Source: a virus. From it: a DNA stretch of 26,133 bases. A program made the translations under genes and the position numbers. The stretch covers positions 1 through 26,133 of IMG/VR virus record IMGVR_UViG_3300030109_000489. One strand, 5' to 3'. Every line of letters starts with the position of its first letter. Positions within the stretch are counted from its first letter, which is position 1. A model generated the notes under the pieces. It was not told where the DNA came from and did no database searches. It saw nothing but the letters and a program-made list of their open reading frames with translations. Below are positions 7,636-21,030 of the stretch, one piece after another.

Positions 7636-8657
7636 TTTCCCATTCCCCCTAAAGCTTGATATATACCTAAACCACCCAATCCTAATCCTAACATTGTTGA
7701 TGCAGCAGATGGAGTAGGTTGATAACTAGAAACCTGTTGTCCCGGAGTTATAGGCATACCTCGTAAAGCTTGTTGATAAAAAGAAATATTTTGTCTAGGA
7801 AATGCAAGTTGATCTTGAAACTCTTGATAACCCATGTCGTATATTTGTTGTTGCATAGCTTGTCTAGCCGTACCGGCTTGTCCTAACTGATCAAGTCTAG
7901 CTATTTCTGCTGCTTGTCTATTAAAACCTAAATCAGCTAGTGCACCGGCAGCACCTAATTGTTGTGCTCTAGTAGCTTGATCTGTTCCTATACCTGCAAA
8001 TCTCGCTGCTCTATCAGCTTCAAATGCACTTCGTCCTTGATCATAAGCCTCTAAAGAACCTACAGCTTGTATATCTGCTATCTGTTTGGTCAGTGCATTT
8101 TCTCTTTCAGATTGCATTATTGCTTCTCTATATCCACCTAATCCTCCTGAAGCTGCTGCATCTTGTGCTATTAAGTTCGACTGTCTTAACGATTGTTCTC
8201 TGGCTGCTTCTTTTGCCATATCTGTGACTGCTTGTTGATATGGATTCATATAAGCTTGCACATTGCCGTAAACAGGGTTACCTGCTGCATCTGTGCCGGT
8301 TACTTGATTATATGTACTTCGAGCAACTCCTTGTCCTGAACCTATAGCCGGAACCATAGTTCCTTCGGGAGTCATCATTTGATTCCTAGCTAAGTTAGTC
8401 ATAACGTCACTTGCAGGAGTTATTTGTGTAGGATCACCTGCTACAGCTAACCCTGCTTTTCCTGTCATAGCTAGTTCTTGCTCTGGACTAAATGTAGCAA
8501 GTCTTTGACCTTCATAAGTAGTATATGGAACAAGAGATTCTGTCTCTGCTCTTTGCATAAGCCTAGTTATATATGGCTCTGCATATTCAGGTAAATTAGT
8601 CTGTGTTACTGTTGATGTGGTCTCTTGAACACCACCTCCGCCTCCGCCTTTACTCAT
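7632..8657 (-). CDS. phage virion-associated protein, Gln/Ala-rich helical
   Basis: 341 residues from the ATG at 8657, which reads MSKGGGGGGVQETTSTVTQT. AGAGG lies 7 nt upstream. A longer TTG start at 8675 is possible but would place this RBS inside the coding region. The Gly-run N-terminus followed by LPEYAEPYITRLMQRAE, and a long Gln/Ala/Arg-rich helical middle, are typical of proteins encoded in the tail or internal-virion region of marine podovirus-like genomes. There is no catalytic motif. The start overlaps the stop of the upstream GNAT-like gene by 8 nt, so translation is probably coupled. Structural or ejection role inferred. Confidence 0.7.
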   Translation of the reverse strand: MSKGGGGGGVQETTSTVTQTNLPEYAEPYITRLMQRAETESLVPYTTYEGQRLATFSPEQELAMTGKAGLAVAGDPTQITPASDVMTNLARNQMMTPEGTMVPAIGSGQGVARSTYNQVTGTDAAGNPVYGNVQAYMNPYQQAVTDMAKEAAREQSLRQSNLIAQDAAASGGLGGYREAIMQSERENALTKQIADIQAVGSLEAYDQGRSAFEADRAARFAGIGTDQATRAQQLGAAGALADLGFNRQAAEIARLDQLGQAGTARQAMQQQIYDMGYQEFQDQLAFPRQNISFYQQALRGMPITPGQQVSSYQPTPSAASTMLGLGLGGLGIYQALGGMGN

Positions 8658-9147
8658 TGTCAAACCTCTTTTCAAATACCGTATAAGCCTTCTTCCAATT
8701 TGATCTGCTTAACCATTTCCAAAATCCGAACCTAGCTGTGCCTTCTATTCCATCGCAACCTGAGTCTTTTGCCCAAGCTTCGAGTTTCATACAAAGTAAC
8801 CAAGCCCACTCTTTAAACTCATCTCCACCTATATATTGTATCGCACACATTAAACTAGCAGGGTATCTAATAAATTGTGTAGTAGCCACACCTAATACTT
8901 TATTGTCTCTGTCTAATGTTACCCATAACTGCTGTTCATCATTCATTAAAGCTTCATAGACATAATCTATAGTCCACCTACCACCAGAACGACTAACTGC
9001 TTTTTCTAAATGAGGTTTTGCATCATCCCATACTGTATACAGTAAATTTATAGGTATTAGACTAATTATGTAGTCAGGATAGTCCTGTTTTATTTCTACG
9101 TAATTAGTATCAGATTCATCGTAATTATTTACATCAAACATATTCAT
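8650..9147 (-). CDS. GNAT-like acetyltransferase-fold phage protein
   Basis: 165 residues. The pattern AVSRSGGRWTIDYVYEALMN, then QQLWVTLDRDNKVLGVATTQ, a mid-protein Arg-Tyr-Pro segment, and a C-terminal LEAWAKDSGCDGIEGTAR followed by a Trp-rich helix matches phage proteins usually annotated as N-acetyltransferases. The canonical acetyl-CoA loop (Q/R-x-x-G-x-G/A) is not evident, so activity is uncertain. It is embedded among virion genes, as in many podovirus-like phages, and its 3' end overlaps the next gene. GTAGG lies about 6 nt before the ATG. Its substrate cannot be told from sequence. Confidence 0.7.
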   Translation of the reverse strand: MNMFDVNNYDESDTNYVEIKQDYPDYIISLIPINLLYTVWDDAKPHLEKAVSRSGGRWTIDYVYEALMNDEQQLWVTLDRDNKVLGVATTQFIRYPASLMCAIQYIGGDEFKEWAWLLCMKLEAWAKDSGCDGIEGTARFGFWKWLSRSNWKKAYTVFEKRFDNE

Positions 9148-9148
9148 A

Positions 9149-12049
9149 TTAACCTACCATAACCTTTTTATCGTTTAGTGGACTAGCTTGTTTTGTAGTT
9201 CCTGTTTTTTCTACTCTAACTTTATCAAGCATATTATCAAGCTTGTCGGAACCTTCATTAGAGTTACCATCTCCTAACATAGAAACAACATCTGCAGGGA
9301 TTATGTACTCACCGGGCGACACAGCAACACCTTGTTGATTACCAATCATGCCCATAATATTATCTTCCATACCTCCACCCATGCCTTGTATTAAGCCTTG
9401 TGTTTGTGCGTTAGGAACCTGCTCTCTTAAAATAGTATCTCTAGCTTGTAAAAAAGCATCTACACCAAACTGTTCTATATAAGCTTGTATTACTCTGTCT
9501 GGATTAGGATGATTACCTAAAACTGCTTCTCTTATTTCTTGTTGCAAAGATATTTCTCTGCTCATATCAGGTACGTTCATACCTGCTGCCATACCAGTGA
9601 CATTTCCAATATCAATATTACCTGTTACATAAAGAGGATCATCTTGTTTATCTTCTTCTTTTTTATCTTCTTCTTTATTTTCAGATTCAGCTTCTTTAGC
9701 TTCTTCAGCTTCTTTAGCTTCTAAATAAGCTAAATATTCTTCATAAGTTTGTTCTTTTAATCTTTGATAATCGGCAGAAGGTATATCGCCTCTAGCCAAA
9801 GCATCAGCTAATGCTTGTTGATAAGCAGTTCTTTTAGCTGCTTGTTCAGTTGGGTTTAATGTTTTGTAAATCGGTCCTGCATAAGCTACAGCAGGGTCTC
9901 TTTCATATTTACCACGATAAGATTCATCATCTGCATACATTCCTACTCCGGAATAACTTATATTGCCAATTTCAGGTATATTTAAAACTGAATAACCATT
10001 ATTTAATTCTATGACACTACCATCCATAGGATTTTTAAATGCACCTAAATCACTAATTTCTGTTCTTGATCCATCTACTCCTATTAATGTTCCTCTTGTA
10101 GCTATACGTCTTTCGCCGGGATATAAATTATCTCCATCTTCAACATAACCTAATAATGGGTCTGTATTAGTATAAGTATAAGTACCGTCTGTTAATGATC
10201 CTTTTTTGCCATAACCTGTTGTACCTACTATTACAGTATCATCATCAGAAGCAGCTAGTTCAGCAGCATTATTAGCAGTAGCAACCATAATATCTTCTTT
10301 AGGAACTCCTGATTCAACTGCTGCATCATAAGCTTCAAGTTGTGCTGCTTCTGCTGCTGCATTTAATAATGTTTCTCTATTAGCTTCTACCATAGACATA
10401 GCAGATGATGGATCACCTAGATAAGGATTTCTACCTCCTTTTCCTCCACCTGAACCAAATCCATATACAGATTCTGTATATTCATCACTACTAGGGTCTA
10501 CATATCCTTCGTCACCGGGTTGTTTTTCTTCACCTGTTATTGGATCAGTATTACTAGTTACAACTACATCTTTAGTATATGGTGCATTAGAAACAGTTGT
10601 TGTTGTACCATCTTCATAAATTACAGTAGATGTGCCATCATTATTATCAATAACTGTACTGCCGGGATTATTAGTTAGGTCACTATCTGTTCTATTAGTT
10701 TTACCTGCACCAGTATCGTACTCTGTGCCTGTATTTTTATAAGTATTAGCATCTGTTTGTACTTTATTAGGATTGTTTTGCGTTTGATCTTGAACAACGT
10801 CAGAACCATAAGCAACAAATTGACCACCTATACCCTGTGCTGTTTCTAAACCTACATTACGATAAGGACTTAATAATTGTGTTGTTGTTGGCAAACCAGC
10901 ATTATAAGCATCTTGCACTCTGCTAAGTACACTTCCAACAGGAACAGCATCATAATTGTAATCAGGTAATACCATAGGTTGATAAGTGCTAGGTATTAAA
11001 GGAGGAGGTGTAAATTCTTGTGTTTCTCCGGCTGCTGCTTGTGCTGCACTTATAGCAGATGCAGGTATTACTCTATCTGGAAAAAAATTAAATTCAGCAT
11101 CTATTCCCGGCATATAAGTGTTTGTAGGTCTAAATTGTCCTTCTGGACCTTTTATTCCTCCACCTTCTTGATAACTAGGAATTTGACCACCTTCAGCAGA
11201 AAAATATTGTGCATAAGGATTTCTTGAATGTATTACTTCAGGATATTTTGCAAACATCTCTTTCTTTTTCTTTTCTCTTTCTGCTCTCATCATGTCCATA
11301 TCTTGCAGGTATCTATCCTGTGCATTTTGTGCAGCTAAAGAACCACCACCTAAAGCTATGGGTAAATAGTTGTCAGCAACTGCTTGTACGGTATCGCCAG
11401 AAACAAAGTTAGATGCTAGGTTACCTAATCTTTCTGTCCCAGACATATTTTCGTATGCAAAATTTAAAGAATCTGCTGTTTTACCTGCTACATCTTTTAA
11501 TTGAACACCTGTTAGTCCTTTGTTTGCAGCTTGTTGTCTTGCTGTTTCAGCTATACGTTTAGATAGTTCTTGGTCCAATGTGCTACCTGCAACATTTGCT
11601 GCTACTTCTGCTTGCTGTACGGCTTGCTGTGCAGCTAAATCCATATTTTGATTTAAAGCTTGTTGTGTAAAGCCTTCTGAAATCATTTCTTCACCACTTC
11701 CTGTAGCGACATTACCCATAATTTCTCCTACTCCATATCCTAATACAGCAGATGCAATACCTTTTTCTAAATCACCTGTTTCTACATACGTGCCTAGTCC
11801 TGAACCTAAAGCTGCACCACCGGCTGCTCCTACAAGACCTTGACCTAATAAATTAGGAAAAAATGCTCCTCCTAATAAACTACCTAATATAGCCCCTACA
11901 AAGGCTTCAGGTTGTCCAGTTTCAGGATTTATAGTTATAGGCATAATAGAGGCTAATCCAGCTACTTCTTGTGGATTTACGTGCATAAGCATAGTGTCGC
12001 CATAACGACCCATTTTTGCTAATTCTGCTGCTTGTTTTCTAGCATCCAT
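9149..12049 (-). CDS. large virion/internal structural protein with Gly-rich hydrophobic N-terminus
   Basis: 966 residues from the ATG at 12049 (MDARKQAAELAKMGRYGDTM). AGAGG lies 9 nt upstream and the start follows the previous stop by 1 nt; a TTG at 12079 would extend it by 10 residues but is not favoured. Residues about 50-112 are Gly/Ala-rich and hydrophobic and could insert into membrane. A GGQIPSYQEGGG motif lies near 287. A long Thr/Asn/Gly-rich middle is followed by an extremely charged Glu/Lys segment. The C-terminus contains SPGEYIIPADVVSMLGDG and a basic helix, a signature I recognise from phage structural proteins. Likely a tail, internal or ejection protein; the precise role is unknown. 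Confidence 0.7.
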   Translation of the reverse strand: MDARKQAAELAKMGRYGDTMLMHVNPQEVAGLASIMPITINPETGQPEAFVGAILGSLLGGAFFPNLLGQGLVGAAGGAALGSGLGTYVETGDLEKGIASAVLGYGVGEIMGNVATGSGEEMISEGFTQQALNQNMDLAAQQAVQQAEVAANVAGSTLDQELSKRIAETARQQAANKGLTGVQLKDVAGKTADSLNFAYENMSGTERLGNLASNFVSGDTVQAVADNYLPIALGGGSLAAQNAQDRYLQDMDMMRAEREKKKKEMFAKYPEVIHSRNPYAQYFSAEGGQIPSYQEGGGIKGPEGQFRPTNTYMPGIDAEFNFFPDRVIPASAISAAQAAAGETQEFTPPPLIPSTYQPMVLPDYNYDAVPVGSVLSRVQDAYNAGLPTTTQLLSPYRNVGLETAQGIGGQFVAYGSDVVQDQTQNNPNKVQTDANTYKNTGTEYDTGAGKTNRTDSDLTNNPGSTVIDNNDGTSTVIYEDGTTTTVSNAPYTKDVVVTSNTDPITGEEKQPGDEGYVDPSSDEYTESVYGFGSGGGKGGRNPYLGDPSSAMSMVEANRETLLNAAAEAAQLEAYDAAVESGVPKEDIMVATANNAAELAASDDDTVIVGTTGYGKKGSLTDGTYTYTNTDPLLGYVEDGDNLYPGERRIATRGTLIGVDGSRTEISDLGAFKNPMDGSVIELNNGYSVLNIPEIGNISYSGVGMYADDESYRGKYERDPAVAYAGPIYKTLNPTEQAAKRTAYQQALADALARGDIPSADYQRLKEQTYEEYLAYLEAKEAEEAKEAESENKEEDKKEEDKQDDPLYVTGNIDIGNVTGMAAGMNVPDMSREISLQQEIREAVLGNHPNPDRVIQAYIEQFGVDAFLQARDTILREQVPNAQTQGLIQGMGGGMEDNIMGMIGNQQGVAVSPGEYIIPADVVSMLGDGNSNEGSDKLDNMLDKVRVEKTGTTKQASPLNDKKVMVG

Positions 12050-12389: not shown

Positions 12390-12585
12390 GTTTCATCCCC
12401 ATAAGTAAAAATTGATGTCTTTTAATTGATTTACTAGGAATGCTTTCTTGCATTCTTTTTAATAAAAATACTTCTCTTTCTAAAAATTGTATAGATTTTA
12501 CTAACTGGTCTCTTGTTATTTCTTCGTTAACATAATCATAAACAGCAGGTGCTATAGGTAAAGTAGTAGGTGTTTTTTGACTCAT
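12382..12585 (-). CDS. small hypothetical phage protein (67 aa)
   Basis: 67 residues, N-terminus Pro-rich, then a helical heptad-like stretch (QLVKSIQFLEREVFLLKRMQ) suggesting a short coiled coil. Its ATG forms a TAATG junction with the stop of the upstream 620-residue tail protein, and its 3' end overlaps the next gene by 8 nt. Tight packing on both sides supports it being real. I do not recognise a family; a small tail-assembly or connector role would fit but is unsupported. Confidence 0.65.
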   Translation of the reverse strand: MSQKTPTTLPIAPAVYDYVNEEITRDQLVKSIQFLEREVFLLKRMQESIPSKSIKRHQFLLMGMKHG

Positions 12586-14447
12586 TATTTTTTACCGTCC
12601 TGTCTCATTTCTAATCTAAATGAACCTAATCTCCATCCATAACCTAAACCAGAACTTTGAAACCTTAATATTGCTTGTCTTGTTCTTGCTCTTATAAAAG
12701 CTTGTTGTGTTGTAGAATTTATAGAACTTGTAGATAAAGTTGTAGGGGTATCAAGCGGATAATCTACACCTTTTACTAAAACGTCTAATGTATCATCAGT
12801 TCCTGTTTGTCCTTTAAAAGTTAAATCCGGAATAATTTTAGAAACAAACATATAGTGTTCACCGTCTGGCTCTAAATCAAAATCAGAAGTTTCTACAAAA
12901 GCATTCATAATAGAACCATCAGCATCATTTCCTACCTCATGGTTATACAAATAATTATTATTAGTAGTGTCGTTTTTGCTTGCTGCAACTGGGAAATCTA
13001 AAGAATTTGCTTCTATCCAAGCTGTTCTAGTAAAACCATCATCGGTTGTGCCTATACTCCAAGTATTTTCTAAATAATTAAAAATTACATATCTGTTTAA
13101 TTCACTTGAATCCGCAGATGGGTAAAACCACATAATTTCATTTTGATCTACATTTGACGTACCAAAAATTTTAAAAGACTGACCTAAATTAATATCAGAA
13201 AATATATAGTCTCTTACTGCACACGGTAAAGTTTGAACACTACCTGCATAAATATAAAAACTTCCCCTATCCATAAAAAACACTTTGTTATCAGCATTTA
13301 TAGCTGCATTCGGTGAAATCATGGAGGGACCTTGCATAATTTCAGAAAATGTAAATATAAAAGGAGCACCACTATATTGCATAGAATGCAATCCATTGTC
13401 TGTCCAAATTAAAATTTCTTGTCTAGTTCTTAGGGCACCAATTATAGTTGATCCACTTGATAATCTAGTGCCTCCGGCTGTATTAGTAGAAGTTGGTGTC
13501 CAATCTATTGAACTTTCTTGATCAGACCATCTGACAAATAATGGATCAGAAGTTGTAGAACCTATTGGATTAGCACCAAAACAAATTATATGTCTATCAA
13601 TATCAGAAACCATTATTTGTAATACTGCTGTTGGTGGATTACTAGCTCCTGATAAATCAGAAAATGACACAGCACGAGTAGATGTGCCTCCACTTTCGTC
13701 CCATAAAAATATTCCGCCACCTCTTACACAAGTTATAAGATCATCACCAAAATTATCTTGCGACCATAATCTTAATTGATTGACTGAATCAATAGCACTT
13801 GTTGATCCCCAACCTCCTGCACCCCAAGTATCTATACCCCATCCTGTTCCTTTTACAAAAGTATCTAGTCCTACATTTATTTCATAAGAACCATCTACAC
13901 CAGAACCTCCATTACCTGTGTCGCTAGAGTTTGCAGTAACTGTAGTTCCTGAAGTATCTTTAGCAGTTATTTCATAAGTATTAGCAGTCAGAACTTTATC
14001 TATTATGTATTCTTGATTTAAAACAGCAGCAGTTACGTTACCACCTAAAGAAACAGCTTGGGCAAAAGTTACAGTATCTCCTGTTACTGCTCCATGTGAT
14101 GAATCTGTTACTACGACTGTTGATGAACCATCAGTTGCAGCAAAAGTTATAGAATTAGTTGATGTTTTTCTTATAGGTGTAATATTGTTAAAAGTAGTTC
14201 CTTCTTTAACATATAGTTTTGTATGCGTTCCTACACCTATGTAATCTGTTTGCCCTTGATCTCTATATGAATGCAAACTTCTACAAGTACCTAAAAAACT
14301 ACTACTTGATGTTTTTTCCCATCCACCTATTTTTTCAGGTCTACCGCTTCTAAATCTTACTTTATCAGCATTAAAATAGCCTCCTTCTTCAGAATAAGAA
14401 GTACCTTCTCTATTTATGCCGGGACGAAAAACATATTTTTTTAACAT
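12585..14447 (-). CDS. phage tail/stabilization-type protein (beta-rich, 620 aa)
   Basis: 620 residues, beta-rich throughout. The N-terminus carries RPGINREGTSYSEEGGYF followed by an Arg-rich KVRFRSGRPEKIGGWEK segment. I associate this signature with podovirus proteins annotated as packaged-DNA stabilization or tail-nozzle proteins. It is rich in Ser, Thr, Asn and Gly with aromatic-Gly turns, which suits a propeller-like fold. It forms a TAATG junction with the upstream lysozyme stop, coupling a virion gene directly to the lysis cassette. Identification is by N-terminal signature and context. The nozzle versus stabilization label should be regarded as provisional. Confidence 0.7.
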   Translation of the reverse strand: MLKKYVFRPGINREGTSYSEEGGYFNADKVRFRSGRPEKIGGWEKTSSSSFLGTCRSLHSYRDQGQTDYIGVGTHTKLYVKEGTTFNNITPIRKTSTNSITFAATDGSSTVVVTDSSHGAVTGDTVTFAQAVSLGGNVTAAVLNQEYIIDKVLTANTYEITAKDTSGTTVTANSSDTGNGGSGVDGSYEINVGLDTFVKGTGWGIDTWGAGGWGSTSAIDSVNQLRLWSQDNFGDDLITCVRGGGIFLWDESGGTSTRAVSFSDLSGASNPPTAVLQIMVSDIDRHIICFGANPIGSTTSDPLFVRWSDQESSIDWTPTSTNTAGGTRLSSGSTIIGALRTRQEILIWTDNGLHSMQYSGAPFIFTFSEIMQGPSMISPNAAINADNKVFFMDRGSFYIYAGSVQTLPCAVRDYIFSDINLGQSFKIFGTSNVDQNEIMWFYPSADSSELNRYVIFNYLENTWSIGTTDDGFTRTAWIEANSLDFPVAASKNDTTNNNYLYNHEVGNDADGSIMNAFVETSDFDLEPDGEHYMFVSKIIPDLTFKGQTGTDDTLDVLVKGVDYPLDTPTTLSTSSINSTTQQAFIRARTRQAILRFQSSGLGYGWRLGSFRLEMRQDGKK

Positions 14448-14887
14448 TATTCTTCTAAAACTCTATCTCTTAATCTTACTGCTCTAGCACCTACTTGATT
14501 AGCCCATTTACTATCCATCATTTCTTCTGATGCTGTTTCAAAGTCTCCTGCTTTCATAGCTGCTAAAAATTTTTTAAAGTTTTTTAATCTAGGTAATCCT
14601 AAATTAAATGCCATATTAGCCATAACTCTTTGCTTGTTATCATCTAAATCTTTCCACCAAGGCAAATTTTTATCTAATTCTTTACACACAATATCTATAT
14701 CAGCGTTCAAACATTCATATATTCTTTCTTCTGATATAGGAGTTCCCATAGGCAAACCCCACTCTTTATCTTTTTCTGTCAATAAATGTCCTACACCCAA
14801 AGTAGGATAACCTAAATGATCTCTATATATTTCATACATAAAGCCTTCATCCATTATTATTTCTTTTACTAATTTATCTCTATCCAT
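14447..14887 (-). CDS. endolysin, GH24 (T4-type) lysozyme
   Basis: 146 residues, a complete single-domain muramidase. The catalytic triad spacing of T4 lysozyme (Glu, +9 Asp, +6 Thr) is present as E14, D23 and T29, followed by LGVGHLL. It should cleave the MurNAc-GlcNAc bond of peptidoglycan. There is no signal peptide or transmembrane anchor, so export depends on a holin, which is encoded immediately upstream. The leader between holin and lysozyme (14888-14954) can fold so that a purine-rich stretch before the ATG is partly paired. AAGG, 11 nt from the ATG, is the likely, slightly distant RBS. Confidence 0.95.
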   Translation of the reverse strand: MDRDKLVKEIIMDEGFMYEIYRDHLGYPTLGVGHLLTEKDKEWGLPMGTPISEERIYECLNADIDIVCKELDKNLPWWKDLDDNKQRVMANMAFNLGLPRLKNFKKFLAAMKAGDFETASEEMMDSKWANQVGARAVRLRDRVLEE

Positions 14888-14954: not shown

Positions 14955-15425
14955 CTAATCTTGTTTCTGTGATGCACCGAAATAAAAACTTATAACAGCA
15001 CTAGCCAAACCACCTAAATAACCTAAAACTAAATTAATTAACGCTTCGCTATTTTGTTCTGGTGGTTGTAAGGTTACTAAAAATATATATGCTAAAAAAC
15101 CACCTACTGTAGCTATACCCATAATTCTAGCTGTCCAATCTTTACCAAATTTACCTCTAGCATCTTGTTTATCAGCAGTTTCTAGTTTAAATACATCTAC
15201 TTCTAATTCTTTCATCTGAACCTCAAAAGCTTGTTCTGCTTTTTTTAATTCTAACATTTGCTCCGGAGATGCCGACTCAATAGCTTTTTCTATAGACTTA
15301 GAATCATTTTTACATCCTAAAACTTCAGAAATCATATTGGCAGCCATACCGCCCATAGGTCCACCTAATGCAGTACCTAAAGTTGGTGCTACTGCACCTA
15401 CAACACTTTTTAACAAATCTTTCAT
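14955..15425 (-). CDS. holin, 3-TM gene-transfer-agent type
   Basis: 156 residues from the ATG at 15425, preceded by GGGAG at 5-nt spacing. An in-frame ATG at 15437 lacks a good RBS. An N-terminal Gly-rich APTLGTALGGPMGGMAANMI segment is followed by a charged helix (SPEQMLELKKAEQAFEVQ), then ...TARIMGIATVGGF... and a second hydrophobic segment at about 128-150. This arrangement matches the 3TM holin family described for gene-transfer-agent release. It lies directly upstream of the lysozyme and starts 3 nt after the cyclase stop, so lysis is translationally linked to the signalling module. The role in permeabilising the inner membrane is inferred from family and position. Confidence 0.75.
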   Translation of the reverse strand: MKDLLKSVVGAVAPTLGTALGGPMGGMAANMISEVLGCKNDSKSIEKAIESASPEQMLELKKAEQAFEVQMKELEVDVFKLETADKQDARGKFGKDWTARIMGIATVGGFLAYIFLVTLQPPEQNSEALINLVLGYLGGLASAVISFYFGASQKQD

Positions 15426-15427
15426 TT

Positions 15428-17197
15428 CTACTCCCATGTATAAACTTGTAAGGGTTTTGCTTTACCTTTAACCTCTATAGGGTCTAATAATTTCATAGCA
15501 AATTTACTATGTTTTGCAGTTTCCTCACCTATTAAAACACCAACACCCGCAACTTTTGTACTAGATTCTAATCTAGCAGCAACATTGCAAGGGTCACCAA
15601 TTAAACTAAATGCAAACCTGTCTGTAGCACCAAAATTTCCTGCTATACAAACTCCACTATTAACACCTATGCCTATAGCTACTTCAGGTATACCTTCTTC
15701 TTTAAACTTTAAGTTAAGCTTATCTATATTACTTTCTATTTCTTTAGCGGCTTGTAATGCTAAATTATGATGATCATCTTGTGGAATTATAGTATTCCAA
15801 TGAAACATACCTGCATCGCCTATAAATTTATCTGTGCATCCAAAATATTTATTAGCTGCTTCTACTTGTGCATCTAATACTGCATTCATAATATACGTAA
15901 CCATTTCTGGTTCTACTGACTCTGATAAGCTAGTAAATCCTCTAAGGTCTGTAAATATAATAGAACAATCTACTCTTTTACCATTTACCTGACAAAGTTC
16001 AGGATTATCTTGCAATTTTTTGACCATTCTTGGATCAAGATATTTACCAAACTGTCCTTTAATTTGTTGCCTTAATTTGTATTGTTCTCTAAATCTAAGA
16101 TAGAAAGCAGTTGAGGCACTTATAAACTGAGATAACAAAGACCAAGTAACATCTATTAATAAACCATTTTGTATTAAATAGTAACCACTTAAAGCAGTTC
16201 CCATTATTACTAAGCTAGAAGCAGATATTCCGAAAGTAATTCCTAGAACATTAATCAAACTTATAACTAAACAAAGTGATATAAATGTAAACAATAATTC
16301 TACTAACAAAGAATAATCAGGAATATAAGGACTATTTTCTATTAATATAGATTCTGCTAAAGCTGCTTGTATTTTATGAGGTTCTAAAAGTTTATTATTA
16401 GGAACTGCAATTTGTGGCATTATTCCTTTTGCTGTAAATCCTACAAAAACAAATTTATTTTCTACATCCATTTCAGCAAGATTGGTTTGTGGTGTATCAA
16501 CCCAACTTATCCATTTTCTACCAAGGCTATCTACCTTAACAGGAGGCAAGCCCCTAACTCTTATTTCTTCTATACCATTATCATTAGTTTTAATAACATA
16601 GGTATCTGCACCAGCTAATACCTTTAAAACTTCAGTTCCGTAAGATGCTACCCAACCGTCATTAGTTCTCATTAATAACGGCAGTCTTCTCACTAAATTA
16701 TCAACTTCTGTTCTTGCTACTGCTAAACCTTGACTTGAATTTTGTTTTAAAACTTTTATATTTTGTATAACGCCTTGAGCCTTAATACCACCTATATCAT
16801 TTCCTAATATGACTGTGCCTGTTGTAGGTGGATATTCTCCTTTTCCCTCAAACATTGCTAATACACTAGGAGAAAAAGACAACGCTTCTGAAAATTCAAA
16901 GTCACCTCCAAATCTATCAGGCTGTGGAAAAGCTATAACCCATCCAACTCCTATAGCACCTTTACGTAAAAGATTTATTTGTATTTGTGCTAGTGTTTGT
17001 CTTGATAAAGGATAACCTCCTTCTCTAGCTATATCTTCTTCTGTGATATTTAAAATCGTAAAATAATCTGAAGGTTCTTGTTGTGTAACAAAAGCATCAA
17101 AAGTTTTTAATTTTAATATTTGATAAGCTGAAGGTTGAAAAATATATACGCTACATAAAGCAAAAATTAATAATAAATAAATATTAAGATTTTTCAT
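15428..17197 (-). CDS. CHASE2-domain class III adenylate cyclase
   Basis: 589 residues with an N-terminal membrane segment (5-22). A periplasmic CHASE2 domain follows (about 30-285), including GYPLSRQTLAQIQINLLRKG and the FVGFTAKG motif. Three membrane segments (about 294-365) lead to a linker with FGKYLDPRMVKKL and a class III cyclase domain (about 405-589). Catalytic residues are intact: metal Asp D417 (FTDLRGF) and D461 (IGDA), adenine-specifying K457 and D535 (IGDPCN), and transition-state N538 and R542. This predicts ATP to cAMP rather than cGMP. The start overlaps the FecR gene stop (ATGA) with AGGG upstream, and the stop is followed at once by the holin. A sensor cyclase in a phage lysis region is very unusual. 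Confidence 0.97.
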   Translation of the reverse strand: MKNLNIYLLLIFALCSVYIFQPSAYQILKLKTFDAFVTQQEPSDYFTILNITEEDIAREGGYPLSRQTLAQIQINLLRKGAIGVGWVIAFPQPDRFGGDFEFSEALSFSPSVLAMFEGKGEYPPTTGTVILGNDIGGIKAQGVIQNIKVLKQNSSQGLAVARTEVDNLVRRLPLLMRTNDGWVASYGTEVLKVLAGADTYVIKTNDNGIEEIRVRGLPPVKVDSLGRKWISWVDTPQTNLAEMDVENKFVFVGFTAKGIMPQIAVPNNKLLEPHKIQAALAESILIENSPYIPDYSLLVELLFTFISLCLVISLINVLGITFGISASSLVIMGTALSGYYLIQNGLLIDVTWSLLSQFISASTAFYLRFREQYKLRQQIKGQFGKYLDPRMVKKLQDNPELCQVNGKRVDCSIIFTDLRGFTSLSESVEPEMVTYIMNAVLDAQVEAANKYFGCTDKFIGDAGMFHWNTIIPQDDHHNLALQAAKEIESNIDKLNLKFKEEGIPEVAIGIGVNSGVCIAGNFGATDRFAFSLIGDPCNVAARLESSTKVAGVGVLIGEETAKHSKFAMKLLDPIEVKGKAKPLQVYTWE

Positions 17198-18309
17198 CCT
17201 GAACCCTGTTTAACATTTATTGTTGTACTAGAGCCACCGTTAACTTTTATGGTATTAGCAACACCGTCTTGCATTAAGTAAATAGTATAGGCATCAGAAC
17301 CATCTACATTTAGCTTTACACTTTGACTTACAGATCGTGTGAAAGTTATATTTCTGCCAGAAACTATTGTTGTGATCTGTGTATCTTTATCCTGTCCTAT
17401 CTCTGTTCCAACTATACGAATACCTACACCACCTTGTTTTAGAGCATCTTCTTCTTTTGATATAGCTAGTGCGTCTATGACATTTAATAAGTCCTCTAAG
17501 AAATTAGTAGCCAACATATCTATGTCTAGTTCAGTAAATTCTAGTTCTTCTTCTGCATCTAAAAAATCTTCTGCTAGATAATCAATATCCAGATCATCAA
17601 ACTCTAAATAATCTGCTGTAGTTTGTGTTTGTGTTTCTTCTTGTTGTTCTTTTATTTCTTCTGGTGGATTTACGATAAGTAAATTATCTATAAATTCTAA
17701 AGATATATCTAAGGTTATAGGTTTAGTAGGATTACTTTCGTAAACAGATACAGTTGTAGCTTGATAAGGTTTATTTAAAGTTACACTACCTAAACCTGTT
17801 GATACTATTATTTCACCGCTAGATATACCGTTTTCATCTGGTAATAAAATTACAAGACTTCTACCTAACTCATCTACTGTACAGGTAAAATCCGTCCCAC
17901 GAATTGCAATTTGGGCTGTTGGTGTACGTATAGATATATTGCTCTTGTTGTTAAATTTACCTGTTATAAAACGTGCTGTACCACTAGCAAACTTTAATGC
18001 CATCTTTGATTTTGATGGATCAGGATCGTAAATGTACTCGTCTATAACAAGTTTAGAATGTTCTGTAAGTTTTACCGTAGAAGCATCTTCAAAAGTTATT
18101 GCCACTCTGCCCGTTTCTGTACGGACATCATCCATTTGTTGTATGTTGAACTCTAATTCAGCATCATACGGCACATCTCTGAGAACTTGTGCATTTCCTC
18201 TGAGTTCTGATACTAAACCTATGTTAGCAGACGAATGAAGTAGTTGCGTCTGACTGAGTAACACAGACAGTACCACTAGAGCCCGCAGATGTAATTTTAA
18301 GCCAGTCAT
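17194..18309 (-). CDS. FecR-domain periplasmic protein with curlin-like C-terminus
   Basis: 371 residues. A signal peptide covers about 1-28 (basic n-region, hydrophobic core, cleavage near HSSA/N). The FecR domain (about 30-190) shows GLVSELRGNAQVLRD, DDVRTETGRVAITFEDAST, and the hallmark ISIRTPTAQIAIRGTDF. A Gln/Glu-rich linker leads to an acidic tandem repeat: LEFDDLDIDYLAEDFLD (235-251) and LEFTELDIDMLATNFLE (256-272), period 21. The last part, IYLMQDGVANTIKVNGG then INVKQGSG, resembles curlin repeats. FecR-domain proteins are often encoded next to CHASE2 cyclases in bacteria, as here (4-nt overlap). Its first 28 codons overlap the upstream curlin-like gene. Likely a periplasmic partner or ligand-sensing protein for the cyclase. 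Confidence 0.88.
   Translation of the reverse strand: MTGLKLHLRALVVLSVLLSQTQLLHSSANIGLVSELRGNAQVLRDVPYDAELEFNIQQMDDVRTETGRVAITFEDASTVKLTEHSKLVIDEYIYDPDPSKSKMALKFASGTARFITGKFNNKSNISIRTPTAQIAIRGTDFTCTVDELGRSLVILLPDENGISSGEIIVSTGLGSVTLNKPYQATTVSVYESNPTKPITLDISLEFIDNLLIVNPPEEIKEQQEETQTQTTADYLEFDDLDIDYLAEDFLDAEEELEFTELDIDMLATNFLEDLLNVIDALAISKEEDALKQGGVGIRIVGTEIGQDKDTQITTIVSGRNITFTRSVSQSVKLNVDGSDAYTIYLMQDGVANTIKVNGGSSTTINVKQGSG
17494..17607 (-). repeat. acidic tandem repeat within FecR-like protein
   Basis: Two copies of a 17-residue acidic motif (L-E-F-x-x-L-D-I-D-x-L-A-x-x-F-L) at a 21-residue period, residues 235-272 of the FecR-domain protein. It reads as an internal duplication and may form amphipathic helices or bind cations. 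Role unknown. Confidence 0.7.
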
Positions 18310-18967
18310 TATCAGATGTTGACTCCTGATCTATATTAAAAGTCCTACTACCTCCGACATGAGTTAGATGAAAATATCCACCTGCATATCCATCACCATC
18401 ATAAGTTACCGTATTATCGTTACCGTCTATGTTCATATAATTAGTAGCACCATCTACATCTATAGATGCAGTTATACTGTTGCTACCACCTTGTATAGTC
18501 CAATCTAAGTCTAGGTTAGCTGCTAGTGCTGTCATAGCGTGATTGAGTGTCATTGTGTTCGTATTACCAGTGACTTGTACGTTTACGTTAGAACCATCGG
18601 CACCTGTAGCATTTGTTTCGTCTGTACTCATATTAAACGTATTTGTGTCGCCTATAAAAGAAAAGTAACCCGTATAGTTGTCTGCCCATATATCGCCTAA
18701 GAATTTATTCGTGTTACCTTTTTGTAAGACATCCAATGTCATAGTTCCGCCATCTAAATCTAAAGCGGTCATAGAACCTGCTGCTGCATCAGAACCACCA
18801 ATAATGTTACCACTACCGCCTACTTGTTCTATATCTAAATTAGACGTTGCTCCTGATTGATCTATAAATATTTCATTATCAGCCCCGTATAGTGTTGATA
18901 CACTCATCATCACAACTAGGTTCATTAATGTCAGTATTTTTATTTTGTTTCCAATAGCCTTTTTCAT
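18224..18967 (-). CDS. curlin-repeat (CsgA/B-like) secreted protein
   Basis: 247 residues. A signal peptide spans 1-29 (MKKAIGNKIKILTLMNLVVM..., cleavage likely YGA/DNE). The rest is a run of roughly eight degenerate repeats of the curlin type, I-x-Q-x-G-x-x-N-x-x-x-I, for example IFIDQSGATSNLDIEQVGG, VLQKGNTNKF, VTGNTNTMTL and IQGGSNSITASI. It is rich in Asn, Thr, Gly and Asp, as expected of an extracellular beta-solenoid amyloid. It ends with two Cys (C235, C247), unusual for curlins. A strong SD (AGAGGAGGG) precedes the start, the best in the module, suggesting high expression. csgG and csgF lie directly upstream, so CsgG is the probable export pore. CsgA-like versus CsgB-like cannot be decided. 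Confidence 0.75.
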   Translation of the reverse strand: MKKAIGNKIKILTLMNLVVMMSVSTLYGADNEIFIDQSGATSNLDIEQVGGSGNIIGGSDAAAGSMTALDLDGGTMTLDVLQKGNTNKFLGDIWADNYTGYFSFIGDTNTFNMSTDETNATGADGSNVNVQVTGNTNTMTLNHAMTALAANLDLDWTIQGGSNSITASIDVDGATNYMNIDGNDNTVTYDGDGYAGGYFHLTHVGGSRTFNIDQESTSDNDWLKITSAGSSGTVCVTQSDATTSFVC

Positions 18968-19736
18968 AGCCCTCCTCTATTGTTTGTAAAACTGCTTTCT
19001 CTACTGCCATTTGTAAAGCTATATTTATTGATTCATTTTCTACTATACCGCTTTCTATTTCAACTAACTCGGTATTATTTGCATAAAATCTAAACACATC
19101 TGAAGATACAGATGCACTTAATATTGTTTTAGTAACTAATACTTCTATTAATATTTTACCTGTTAAAACAGATACAGTTCGTAAAGATATAGTTACAGAA
19201 TCTTGTCTATATTCTTTAGAGCCACCTATACCTAAATATCTAGCACCAGCACCACCTGATTTAATATTTGTTTCGTAACCTACAACACCACCTTCCATTA
19301 ATAAACCAGCAAACATTAAAGGTTTTACCTTTTGTTTTTCTTCAAAGTTTTCTCTAGTTGTACGTATTATCTGACGTTCTTTTGTAAGATTATCTAAACC
19401 GGTGCGTTCTACAACATCAAAAACACCAGAATGTTGTAATGCTCTTATAAGATAAGCATCGGGTGCTTGAGTTATTGCGGTACTAAAACTAGCATATTGA
19501 CTATTACTTCTTCGCTGTCCGGTATCATCTTTAAAAGAACTTGGATATACAGCTACTACAGGTTTTCGTATAGGAAGAGGCACCTCTGCTAAATCAGTTA
19601 ATAAAGAACTAACTTCGGCTGATTCTATATGTCTTATAGGTGGTATTCCGTTATCTAATGGATCAACAATCAACGCACAACTAGAAAGTAAAAGAACCAA
19701 GAGGTACAGTAATTTCTGTTGTATTGCCTTCTTCAT
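18879..19736 (-). CDS. csgG: CsgG family outer-membrane curli secretion lipoprotein
   Basis: 285 residues (E. coli CsgG has 277). A lipoprotein signal peptide ends in the lipobox LSSC with acylated Cys C20. Family signatures run in order: KPVVAVYPSSFKDDTGQRRS (58-77), FSTAITQAPDAYLIRAL (84-100), ERTGLDNLTKERQIIR (110-125), GGAGARYLGIGGSKEYRQD (161-179), LTGKILIEVLVTKTILS (191-207), and the C-terminal NESINIALQMAVEKAV...GYW. It should form the nonameric outer-membrane channel that exports curlins. The start has no SD, and its first 19 codons overlap csgF, so translation is probably coupled. The residues matching the E. coli constriction differ (S79, S83, F84 opposite Y51, N55, F56, ungapped alignment). 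Confidence 0.97.
   Translation of the reverse strand: MKKAIQQKLLYLLVLLLSSCALIVDPLDNGIPPIRHIESAEVSSLLTDLAEVPLPIRKPVVAVYPSSFKDDTGQRRSNSQYASFSTAITQAPDAYLIRALQHSGVFDVVERTGLDNLTKERQIIRTTRENFEEKQKVKPLMFAGLLMEGGVVGYETNIKSGGAGARYLGIGGSKEYRQDSVTISLRTVSVLTGKILIEVLVTKTILSASVSSDVFRFYANNTELVEIESGIVENESINIALQMAVEKAVLQTIEEGYEKGYWKQNKNTDINEPSCDDECINTIRG
18970..18978 (-). promoter_or_regulatory. strong Shine-Dalgarno of the curlin-like gene
   Basis: AGAGGAGGG, 2 nt before the ATG at 18967, with the GAGG core about 6 nt away. It lies inside the 3' end of csgG, where coding constraints would otherwise act. The csgG, csgF and fecR-like starts lack a well-placed SD, so this gene is probably translated most. It also decides the start at 18967 over the internal Met codons. 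Confidence 0.7.
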
Positions 19737-20148
19737 CTGTAATTATTAATGTTACTTTATCGTCTTCTACTCTATATTCTATTGTATTGCCTTCTAATTC
19801 AAGAACACCAAAATCTGACGCAGTTTCTCCAAATAAACTATCTACCAACTGCCTTGATAACTGTGCATAAATACGACTTTCTAAATTACGAATAAATCTA
19901 GCTAAAGTTGTGTTGTCAGCCTCTCTTTCTAAATCTTCTACATAGGCTTTGATTTCTTCACGAATAGCTTCTTTTCTATTAAATTCTTGATTTTCTATAG
20001 TCAGGTAGTGACTAGATGTGCCAACACCAGAAAAACTTGGGTTTTTAAATTTATGGGTCATTTCATCTGCTTGCACAGATAAAACTACAAACATAAAAAT
20101 TATCATGGAAGCTATCAGCAACACTTCATCAGGACGTTTAGAAGGCAT
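19681..20148 (-). CDS. csgF: CsgF-like curli assembly protein
   Basis: 155 residues from the ATG at 20148. The signal peptide (about 1-27, ...VVLSVQA/DE) is followed by MTHKFKNPSFSGVGTSSHYL, matching the conserved mature CsgF start (F-x-N-P-x-F-x-G, then a Gln/Asn-containing segment) that inserts into the CsgG channel in E. coli. A charged helical middle follows, and the C-terminus (VTLIITDEEGNTTEITVPLG) matches the CsgF beta tail. Longer in-frame starts up to 20271 exist, but they would put the signal peptide deep inside and overlap the 65-residue upstream gene. The 20148 start follows that gene's stop by 5 nt. Expected to work with the adjacent CsgG in anchoring or nucleating exported curlin at the surface. 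Confidence 0.88.
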   Translation of the reverse strand: MPSKRPDEVLLIASMIIFMFVVLSVQADEMTHKFKNPSFSGVGTSSHYLTIENQEFNRKEAIREEIKAYVEDLEREADNTTLARFIRNLESRIYAQLSRQLVDSLFGETASDFGVLELEGNTIEYRVEDDKVTLIITDEEGNTTEITVPLGSFTF

Positions 20149-20153
20149 AATTT

Positions 20154-20351
20154 TTATAGATAAGTAATTACTAAATCTACACTTTTTACTGTATCTATCC
20201 AATAAAATGTTATATAGCCTAGCCAACTGAATGCAATTAAAAAGCAACATACTACTGTGTATCTTTTCCAATTTGCTAGTAATAAATCTATTGAGATATC
20301 AATAAAATTAAATACCTTTTGTCTTTTAGATAGTTTCTTTTTTCTTGGCAT
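20154..20351 (-). CDS. small single-span membrane protein (65 aa)
   Basis: 65 residues with a very basic N-terminus (MPRKKKLSKRQK) and a hydrophobic segment around 33-52 containing Trp, Cys and Tyr. A perfect AAGGAG lies about 5 nt upstream of the ATG, so it is well translated. It ends 5 nt before csgF. The topology is probably N-in by the positive-inside rule. It is not CsgE by length or sequence. It could be a small lysis, regulatory or export helper; I do not recognise a family. Confidence 0.65.
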   Translation of the reverse strand: MPRKKKLSKRQKVFNFIDISIDLLLANWKRYTVVCCFLIAFSWLGYITFYWIDTVKSVDLVITYL

Positions 20352-20360
20352 AGCTGCTCC

Positions 20361-20699
20361 TTAATTAAATGCCCAAACAAAAACTGCTAATAATCCAATC
20401 AAAGATAACAAAATAAATGCAATAGAAGTTATTTCTATAGTCTTACCTAATTTATTTAGATATATTGTATCTCGTTCAGGATTAAACCTTTCGTCCTCAT
20501 AAATATACTTATCACGCGGAAAAGGTCTTTTGGGTATAGGTTCAAATATTACGTTGTCTATTGAGACTAACTGTTCTTCTTCTATTCTTTTTACTTCTGC
20601 CTCTTGGTACTCCGTCCATTTTTTACCGTACTTTTCATACATAATATTATTAAAGTCAGCGTCTAAAAATGCTTGATCTTCAGTCTTTTCTTTGGTCAT
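20361..20699 (-). CDS. C-terminally anchored small membrane protein (112 aa)
   Basis: 112 residues: a long charged, Glu/Lys/Tyr-rich soluble part (1-88, with FEPIPKRPFPRDKYIYEDER in the middle) and a single C-terminal membrane segment (about 91-111, ending AVFVWAFN). The tail-anchor design puts the bulk of the protein in the cytoplasm. AAGG lies 9 nt before the start. It overlaps the 3' end of the upstream membrane gene by 20 nt and stops 9 nt before the next start. No family is recognised; the neighbourhood is a run of three small membrane proteins before the curli genes. Confidence 0.6.
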   Translation of the reverse strand: MTKEKTEDQAFLDADFNNIMYEKYGKKWTEYQEAEVKRIEEEQLVSIDNVIFEPIPKRPFPRDKYIYEDERFNPERDTIYLNKLGKTIEITSIAFILLSLIGLLAVFVWAFN

Positions 20700-21030
20700 C
20701 TCTATCTGCCTTTGCTATTTTATTACTGTCTATTAACTGTGGTACACCAAGTATTGTTTTTATAAGTGTGTCTTGTCTAATAATTTCATTGTCTAAACTT
20801 CTTATGCGATCTATAAGAGCTACTAAGATGCCGTGTTGTGAATCTAATTTAGTTCCAAGTCTATCTTCCATTTGAGATATTTGATCGGCTACTTTATCAT
20901 CTAGCACATCTAGTTTAGTTTCCATGCCGTCTATTATTCTATTTATAAGCTTCCAAATAAAAATACCTAGTCCTAGAGCAGCAGCTATTGGAAACCCAAC
21001 TTCTGCTATAAATAAAGTAATATCTTCCAT
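20680..21030 (-). CDS. small membrane protein with TM plus coiled coil (116 aa)
   Basis: 116 residues. One N-terminal membrane segment (about 5-33, ITLFIAEVGFPIAAALGLGI) is followed by an amphipathic coiled-coil region (about 36-90, heptad Leu/Ile with METKLDVLDDKVADQIS) and a charged tail. The layout resembles small phage holin-like or hemolysin-XhlA-like proteins, but no signature is decisive. Its start forms a TAATG junction with the SNase stop, so translation is coupled. A possible second holin or lysis regulator, at low certainty. Confidence 0.6.
   Translation of the reverse strand: MEDITLFIAEVGFPIAAALGLGIFIWKLINRIIDGMETKLDVLDDKVADQISQMEDRLGTKLDSQHGILVALIDRIRSLDNEIIRQDTLIKTILGVPQLIDSNKIAKADRDDQRKD

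Follow-up and report, generated by a model that had tools for sequence, protein, structure and literature searches.

Gene clusters for curli-type (type VIII) secretion that also carry a FecR gene and an adenylate cyclase gene have been described in podophages, nine of which encode the secretion system, and in myophages (PMC9599517, 2022). Curli genes have likewise been reported in pelagimyophages (PMC7029224) and in phage Melnitz (PMC9004378). Aggregation, superinfection defence or uptake was proposed as the function of phage curli in PMC9599517, which also reports metatranscriptomic evidence that the viral curli proteins and FecR are expressed, and a lysis role was proposed for CsgGF of Melnitz (PMC9004378). 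The initial annotation of the locus studied here took a membrane sensor cyclase beside phage lysis genes to be something not described. Since the published pelagiphage module already includes FecR and an adenylate cyclase (PMC9599517), and the GenBank records of HTVC008M and Melnitz carry annotated cyclases, a phage cyclase as such is not new. The words CHASE2, lysozyme, endolysin, holin and spanin do not occur in the main text of PMC9599517, and in the open-licence literature we found no paper that names CHASE2 in these phage cyclases or FecR-CHASE2 pairing in phages. What is new here is the identity of the sensor half of the protein, its pairing with FecR in common with bacteria, a Ser-type active site, the abutment on lysis genes in podophages and, in the family to which the host probably belongs, the lack of a CRP-type receiver.

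In bacteria, FecR and CHASE2 genes have been reported together in several settings, i.e. a CHASE2-cyclase/FecR/phosphodiesterase/TPR cluster in Campylobacterota (PMC9239204), a biofilm operon with FecR and a CHASE2 kinase in Burkholderia (PMC5192318), and CyaD1 of S. meliloti, which is encoded near the FecR gene SMc02177 and yields constitutive cAMP when expressed as a construct lacking CHASE2 (PMC5498481). According to the main text of the latter paper, mutation of smc02177 had no significant effect on signal perception, which counts against FecR as an obligate sensor.

The curli, FecR and cyclase genes in the window and its relatives

The stretch analysed (the window) is a linear 26,133-base IMG/VR virus record, IMGVR_UViG_3300030109_000489, which is without a completeness figure. 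Its main genes are all on the minus strand, in the order Peptidase_S74 tail-spike-like gene, small genes, 2OG-Fe(II) oxygenase, nuclease, CsgF, CsgG, curlin-like gene, FecR, CHASE2-cyclase, holin-like gene, lysozyme and virion proteins; all coordinates given below refer to this strand. The phage origin assumed in the initial annotation is confirmed by the IMG/VR virus record and by the virion, tail, endolysin and DNA-ejection genes that flank the cyclase on the same strand, and with no bacterial housekeeping gene seen, a bacterial contig is ruled out. No near-identical GenBank phage was found by megablast with window bases 1-25000.

The cyclase gene (15428..17197; ATG start, 589 aa) is the last of a five-gene module encoded on one strand, which is the T8SS-FecR-adenylate cyclase order of the pelagiphages. 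The four upstream genes, with which the cyclase travels and which the initial annotation left out, encode CsgF (19681..20271; 196 aa from TTG; Pfam CsgF, 9.9e-18 at residues 54-190; hydrophobic segment at 50-68; the real start is probably further downstream than the listed TTG), the outer-membrane curli secretion pore CsgG (18879..19736; 285 aa; Pfam CsgG, 5.8e-51), a curlin-like repeat protein (18224..18967; 247 aa) and a FecR-domain protein (17194..18309; 371 aa; Pfam FecR, 5.3e-13 at residues 60-151) with a hydrophobic, signal-peptide-like N-terminus. The curlin-like protein has xGxxN repeats and is encoded where HTVC008M and Melnitz have genes annotated as curlin; its match to Pfam Curlin_rpt is weak (E 1.7), and the gene in the same place in the contig L187 matches at 1.1e-4. 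The FecR gene and the cyclase start overlap by 4 nt (ATGA). Upstream of CsgF, three small membrane proteins of 65, 112 and 116 aa (20154..21030), each with one hydrophobic segment or cluster, contain no HisKA or HATPase domain (Pfam, E<=1). By position, these are the proteins called 'histidine kinase' before CsgF in the cluster described in PMC9599517, a possible misannotation.

The HTVC023P-type pelagiphages share both the genes and their arrangement, CsgF-CsgG-curlin-FecR-(curlin)-cyclase (PMC9599517). The myophages HTVC008M (Pelagibacter) and Melnitz (OM43) encode full-length CHASE2-cyclases, sharing 31% identity over 93-96% with that of the window and falling into one clade with it, but their array (CsgF-CsgG-curlin-FecR-curlin-cyclase) differs from that of the window by an extra curlin-like gene between FecR and the cyclase. 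In a tree of 95 sequences constructed with a quick method (no bootstrap), the 16 chosen viral cyclases formed a single clade, on long branches, against the 79 bacterial cyclases (SH-aLRT 100). Matches to a cyclase recorded for 'Acinetobacter phage MD-2021a' were dropped as probable host DNA, its neighbours being isc genes, mfd and housekeeping genes.

A protein-based scan of IMG/VR returned 393 relatives of the window cyclase, of which the best 80 (72-89% identical) were used; these are close relatives of one another, and the counts drawn from them are not independent. Within this set, all 49 loci whose flank upstream of the cyclase measures 1.4 kb or more have FecR there, and all 33 with a flank of 3.3 kb or more have CsgG. 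An independent scan with CsgG as the query covered 80 of at least 595 loci; one, already present in the first set (L010), was left out. Among the 79 new loci, FecR follows CsgG in all 52 with enough sequence, whereas in the 29 with enough sequence to assess the cyclase, it is encoded on the same strand in 24, convergently in 2 and not at all in 3. The secretion genes are therefore constantly accompanied by FecR; the cyclase, missing from 3 of the 29 loci and encoded on the other strand in 2, is a usual but dispensable member of the module. The three loci without a cyclase (L204, L216 and L224), in which FecR abuts the lysis genes, are natural cyclase-less forms that are useful as a comparison. 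In L238 and L255, the cyclase is on the opposite strand and converges on FecR; it is thus probably its own transcription unit there. A further locus, L004, encodes a cyclase 86% identical to that of the window together with CsgG and FecR that are only 59% identical, so the cyclase seems to have been swapped separately from the rest of the module.

The C-terminal tail of the phage FecR resembles curlin repeats. The motif Q.G..N occurs in 52 of 68 phage FecR tails compared with 2 of 1148 other tails (the sequences are related and the counts not independent), and with a position matrix 64 of the 68 tails score above 95% of other tails and 32 above 95% of composition-matched shuffles. Pfam Curlin_rpt has no match on FecR, and the AlphaFold2 model of the protein (pLDDT 36.5) is unusable. 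The curlin-like character of the tail is therefore suggestive only.

Pairing of FecR with CHASE2-cyclases was also seen in bacteria. The bacterial set comprised the best 80 of at least 578 CHASE2-cyclase loci, many from Alphaproteobacteria. A FecR gene occurs in 21 of these 80; in 11 it immediately precedes the cyclase on the same strand, and in no case does it immediately follow the cyclase on that strand. FecR is common in alphaproteobacterial genomes (91 of 190) but has few copies per genome. The bacterial cyclases (Bradyrhizobium, Sulfurimonas and Thalassospira loci; S. meliloti CyaD1) have the same domain order as the window cyclase, with which they share 24-34% identity, but CsgG is found in 0 of these best 80 loci. 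The C-termini of their FecR partners are unlike those of the phage FecR, and the Q.G..N motif occurs in 0 of 21. Several of these partners (in L092, L093, L090, L087 and L095) are open frames of 1200-1800 aa, the C-termini of which look by eye like those of secreted adhesins, suggesting that FecR/CHASE2 pairs watch surface-polymer export. FecR and the CHASE2-cyclase constitute a sensor pair that is common to phages and bacteria, rather than a lone 'adenylate cyclase' auxiliary gene.

Architecture, active site and selection of the cyclase

The CHASE2 sensor domain and class III cyclase domain proposed in the initial annotation were borne out by a Pfam HMM search, with both domains far above their cut-offs: CHASE2 at residues 13-306 (E 9.5e-23; 81.5 bits, cut-off 26.3) and Guanylate_cyc at residues 410-582 (E 4.3e-15; 56.2 bits, cut-off 21.9) within a cyclase region spanning 407-589. 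The AlphaFold2 model (mean pLDDT 88.9, built from 32 aligned sequences) contains four long hydrophobic helices and not the three membrane spans previously counted, although three of the four pass a plain hydropathy scan. One (2-20) precedes and three (296-318, 320-343 and 351-383) follow CHASE2, which is thus bounded by membrane helices on both sides, as in a membrane sensor. The assignment to class III rests on two metal-binding Asp residues, the Lys/Asn/Arg catalytic set and the fold; in Foldseek comparisons, the cyclase domain superposes on CyaC of Spirulina (1wc0) and CyaB of P. aeruginosa (3r5g) with TMt values of 0.81-0.87. Like the window cyclase, these two enzymes have a Lys together with a hydroxyl-bearing residue at the second specificity position; their regulatory domains differ from its own. 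Over its full length, the model is best matched among predicted viral structures by an uncultured Caudovirales phage protein that bears the name 'COG4252 Predicted transmembrane sensor domain' (TMq 0.88, 31% identity), and phage database entries of this architecture therefore already exist. The architecture is that of a bacterial-type sensor cyclase, as had been supposed.

The window cyclase and 82 fetched relatives (76 judged full length, all used) gave an alignment of 83 viral sequences. All six residues listed in the initial annotation are present in the window cyclase, and D417, K457, D461, D535 and R542 show no variation among the 83 sequences, while N538 is replaced in just one of them. 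The accompanying statement that a K/D pair specifies ATP is wrong in its second member. In the cyclase Ma1120, the second substrate-specificity residue, D157, lies seven residues before the transition-state position 164 (PMC4215837), and this spacing places the second specificity position of the window cyclase at S531, not D535; the pair is K457/S531. The equivalent of S531 is Ser in 82 of the 83 viral sequences and Asp in Melnitz alone. In the alignment, CyaB and CyaC have Thr at this position and Arg or Pro at that of D535, and all 15 aligned bacterial CHASE2-cyclases have Ser (6) or Thr (9) at the S531 position. The enzyme therefore lacks the Asp seven residues before the catalytic Asn of canonical K/D, ATP-specific cyclases and belongs to the Ser/Thr type, in which Thr or Ser occupies the second position and Lys is kept, a type labelled 'class IIIb'. 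The D157T variant of Ma1120, a K/T combination, retained a strong preference for ATP (PMC4215837), so ATP is also the likely substrate of the window cyclase, as judged from its residues.

Median dN/dS values calculated for 75 sequences over 486 pairs (484 for the transmembrane region) were lowest in the cyclase domain, at 0.061, compared with 0.152 in CHASE2 and 0.219 in the transmembrane region. At the level of sequence comparison, these data demonstrate strong purifying selection on a cyclase whose predicted catalytic residues are intact. The Melnitz cyclase (7929-9980 in its record, L083) has Ser for the transition-state Asn together with Asp at the specificity position, and its activity may therefore be altered.

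Likely host and the receiver of cyclic nucleotide

Three longer relatives of the window (55.7, 57.7 and 52.5 kb) share about 60% identity in the capsid protein and 52-58% in the large terminase with HTVC023P and DSL-LC04 (about 60% and about 52-54%, respectively, for HTVC023P), which places them in an HTVC023P-like podophage lineage. HTVC023P infects Pelagibacter, and the closest virion protein is found in DSL-LC04, the host of which is listed as Gammaproteobacteria. As a clue to the host, phage tRNAs were sought in the three relatives, and none were found. Bacterial genomes were also searched for cyclases of the phage type, using as the SAR11-type family that of one of the two genomes, among 385 alphaproteobacterial ones, that match a SAR11 16S probe. 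Phage-type cyclases were found in 2 of 297 genomes of this family (limit 1e-40); the gammaproteobacterial control gave 0 of 274 at the stricter limit of 1e-60, a zero that shows nothing. One of the two cyclases (57% identical) shares its contig with genes resembling those for terminase and portal, and the other (32% identical) lies on a 14.6-kb contig with CsgG, curlin-like and FecR genes, the ORFs of which are phage-like by eye. Phage-like contigs with a curli-FecR-cyclase module thus occur in the genome assemblies of this family (L186, contig 1 of G408; L187, contig 11 of G444) and provide a possible host link. We infer that a member of the SAR11-type family is the likely host of the window phage.

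The cNMP-binding domain PF00027 is absent from 281 of the 297 SAR11-type genomes, and from 58 of 60 in a smaller set, in which class III cyclases occur in two genomes, both of the phage type. The 16 genomes with a match comprise three in which it lies in frames of 125-254 aa, the rest being weak matches in longer frames. As positive controls, the domain was detected in 10 of 14 named genomes and in 6 of 6 other genomes carrying a CHASE2-cyclase. A phage-encoded cAMP receptor was considered and rejected, PF00027 being found in 0 of 14 phage records; just two of these, HTVC008M and Melnitz-3, carry the label of a complete genome.

The scarcity of PF00027 in the SAR11-type family and in the phages makes a classical cAMP-CRP output unlikely there; if the host belongs to this family, cAMP made by the phage would usually be without a CRP-type receiver. 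The suggestion in the initial annotation that cAMP is produced during infection in response to a periplasmic cue is plausible, and this scarcity complicates it.

Placement beside lysis genes and proposed role

The end of the cyclase gene overlaps the start of a holin-like gene (14955..15437; 160 aa) by 10 nt, followed by a lysozyme-type endolysin (14447..14887; 146 aa; Pfam Phage_lysozyme, PF00959, 2.6e-13) and a virion structural/stabilization protein (12585..14447; phrog_3287, 3.6e-74), a conserved anchor downstream of the lysis cassette. With regard to the placement beside holin and lysozyme given in the initial annotation, the lysozyme and the position directly upstream of lysis genes are confirmed, whereas the holin identity is weakly supported: the protein belongs to a PHROG of unknown function (phrog_1544), has no Pfam match and shares 25% identity with 'Holin of 3TMs' of phage DSL-LC04 (E 3e-7 in a single comparison). 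The suggested search of phage collections for CHASE2-cyclases next to holins was carried out with the best 80 of 393 IMG/VR relatives; of the 68 loci with 1.6 kb or more of sequence beyond the cyclase, 64 have an endolysin within 1.7 kb downstream of it. The cassettes differ, with a holin-like gene in 19 loci, an overlapping i-/o-spanin-like pair in 46 and neither in 3, the spanin-like genes being recognized by shape alone (an N-terminal membrane segment plus coiled coil, and a lipoprotein-like partner). The adjacency of cyclase and lysis genes therefore survives exchange of the lysis genes.

On balance, we slightly favour the view that the cyclase is a late sensor of the state of FecR and curli secretion, making cAMP as the signalling end of the phage curli module; confidence in it is moderate because we infer everything about its function that goes further than the anatomy. 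Late in infection, the secretion genes would be expressed along with the sensor pair, and periplasmic FecR would report curlin or pore status to the CHASE2 domain. The signal would then cross the membrane helices to a dimeric cyclase converting ATP to cAMP, the substrate favoured by K457/S531, and the output may be used in the lysis phase, as the position of the cassette suggests.

A stricter timing role, in which the cyclase output, or loss of the periplasmic FecR/curlin signal, sets when holin or spanin and endolysin act, would account for the recurrent endolysin downstream of the cyclase in two types of cassette and would agree with the lysis role proposed for Melnitz CsgGF. We consider it unlikely, since the loci counted are close relatives, late genes may simply cluster, FecR abuts lysis genes without a cyclase in three loci, and the curli modules of HTVC008M and Melnitz have no adjacent genes annotated as lysis genes. 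It is quite improbable that, as a partner auxiliary gene along the lines proposed in PMC9599517, the cyclase supplies cAMP that helps to regulate curli, so that infected cells aggregate or related advantages arise ('sibling capture'); its place within the curli cluster and the metatranscriptomic expression of viral curli proteins and FecR fit this proposal, but most SAR11-type genomes offer no CRP route, and Melnitz cultures showed no clumping (PMC9004378). A private pelagiphage device, in which a curlin-tailed periplasmic FecR would read curlin export via CsgG and the CHASE2-cyclase signal would time lysis, seems similarly doubtful; with a host lacking a CRP-type receiver, its signal would have to be received by a phage or host protein that has yet to be described, or by a neighbouring cell.

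It is very unlikely that the product is instead cGMP, or cCMP or cUMP as in Pycsar-type systems, serving in conflict with host defence or other phages. Ser at the second specificity position is also found in guanylyl cyclases (PMC4215837), and the PADLOC PycC model matches the window cyclase at 5.3e-26, but this model scores six bacterial CHASE2-cyclases at 90.3-105.7 bits against 89.6 for the window cyclase, Lys rather than Glu occupies position 457 in all 83 viral cyclases, and PADLOC found nothing in the six neighbours scanned. A PycC identity was accordingly rejected, the match being unspecific and the neighbours being FecR, curli and lysis genes. That the gene is an inactive relic carried as a passenger is scarcely credible: the Ser of Melnitz and the loss from three CsgG loci would fit, but all catalytic residues are kept in the other 82 sequences and the cyclase domain has the lowest dN/dS of the three regions compared.

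Returning to the late sensor of curli secretion, an active enzyme would mean that phages infecting very abundant marine bacteria introduce the synthase of a second messenger into cells in which its usual receiver appears to be missing, and that they encode it next to the genes by which the infection is brought to its close. Two questions would then become testable, namely what purpose phage curli systems serve and what FecR/CHASE2 pairs sense.
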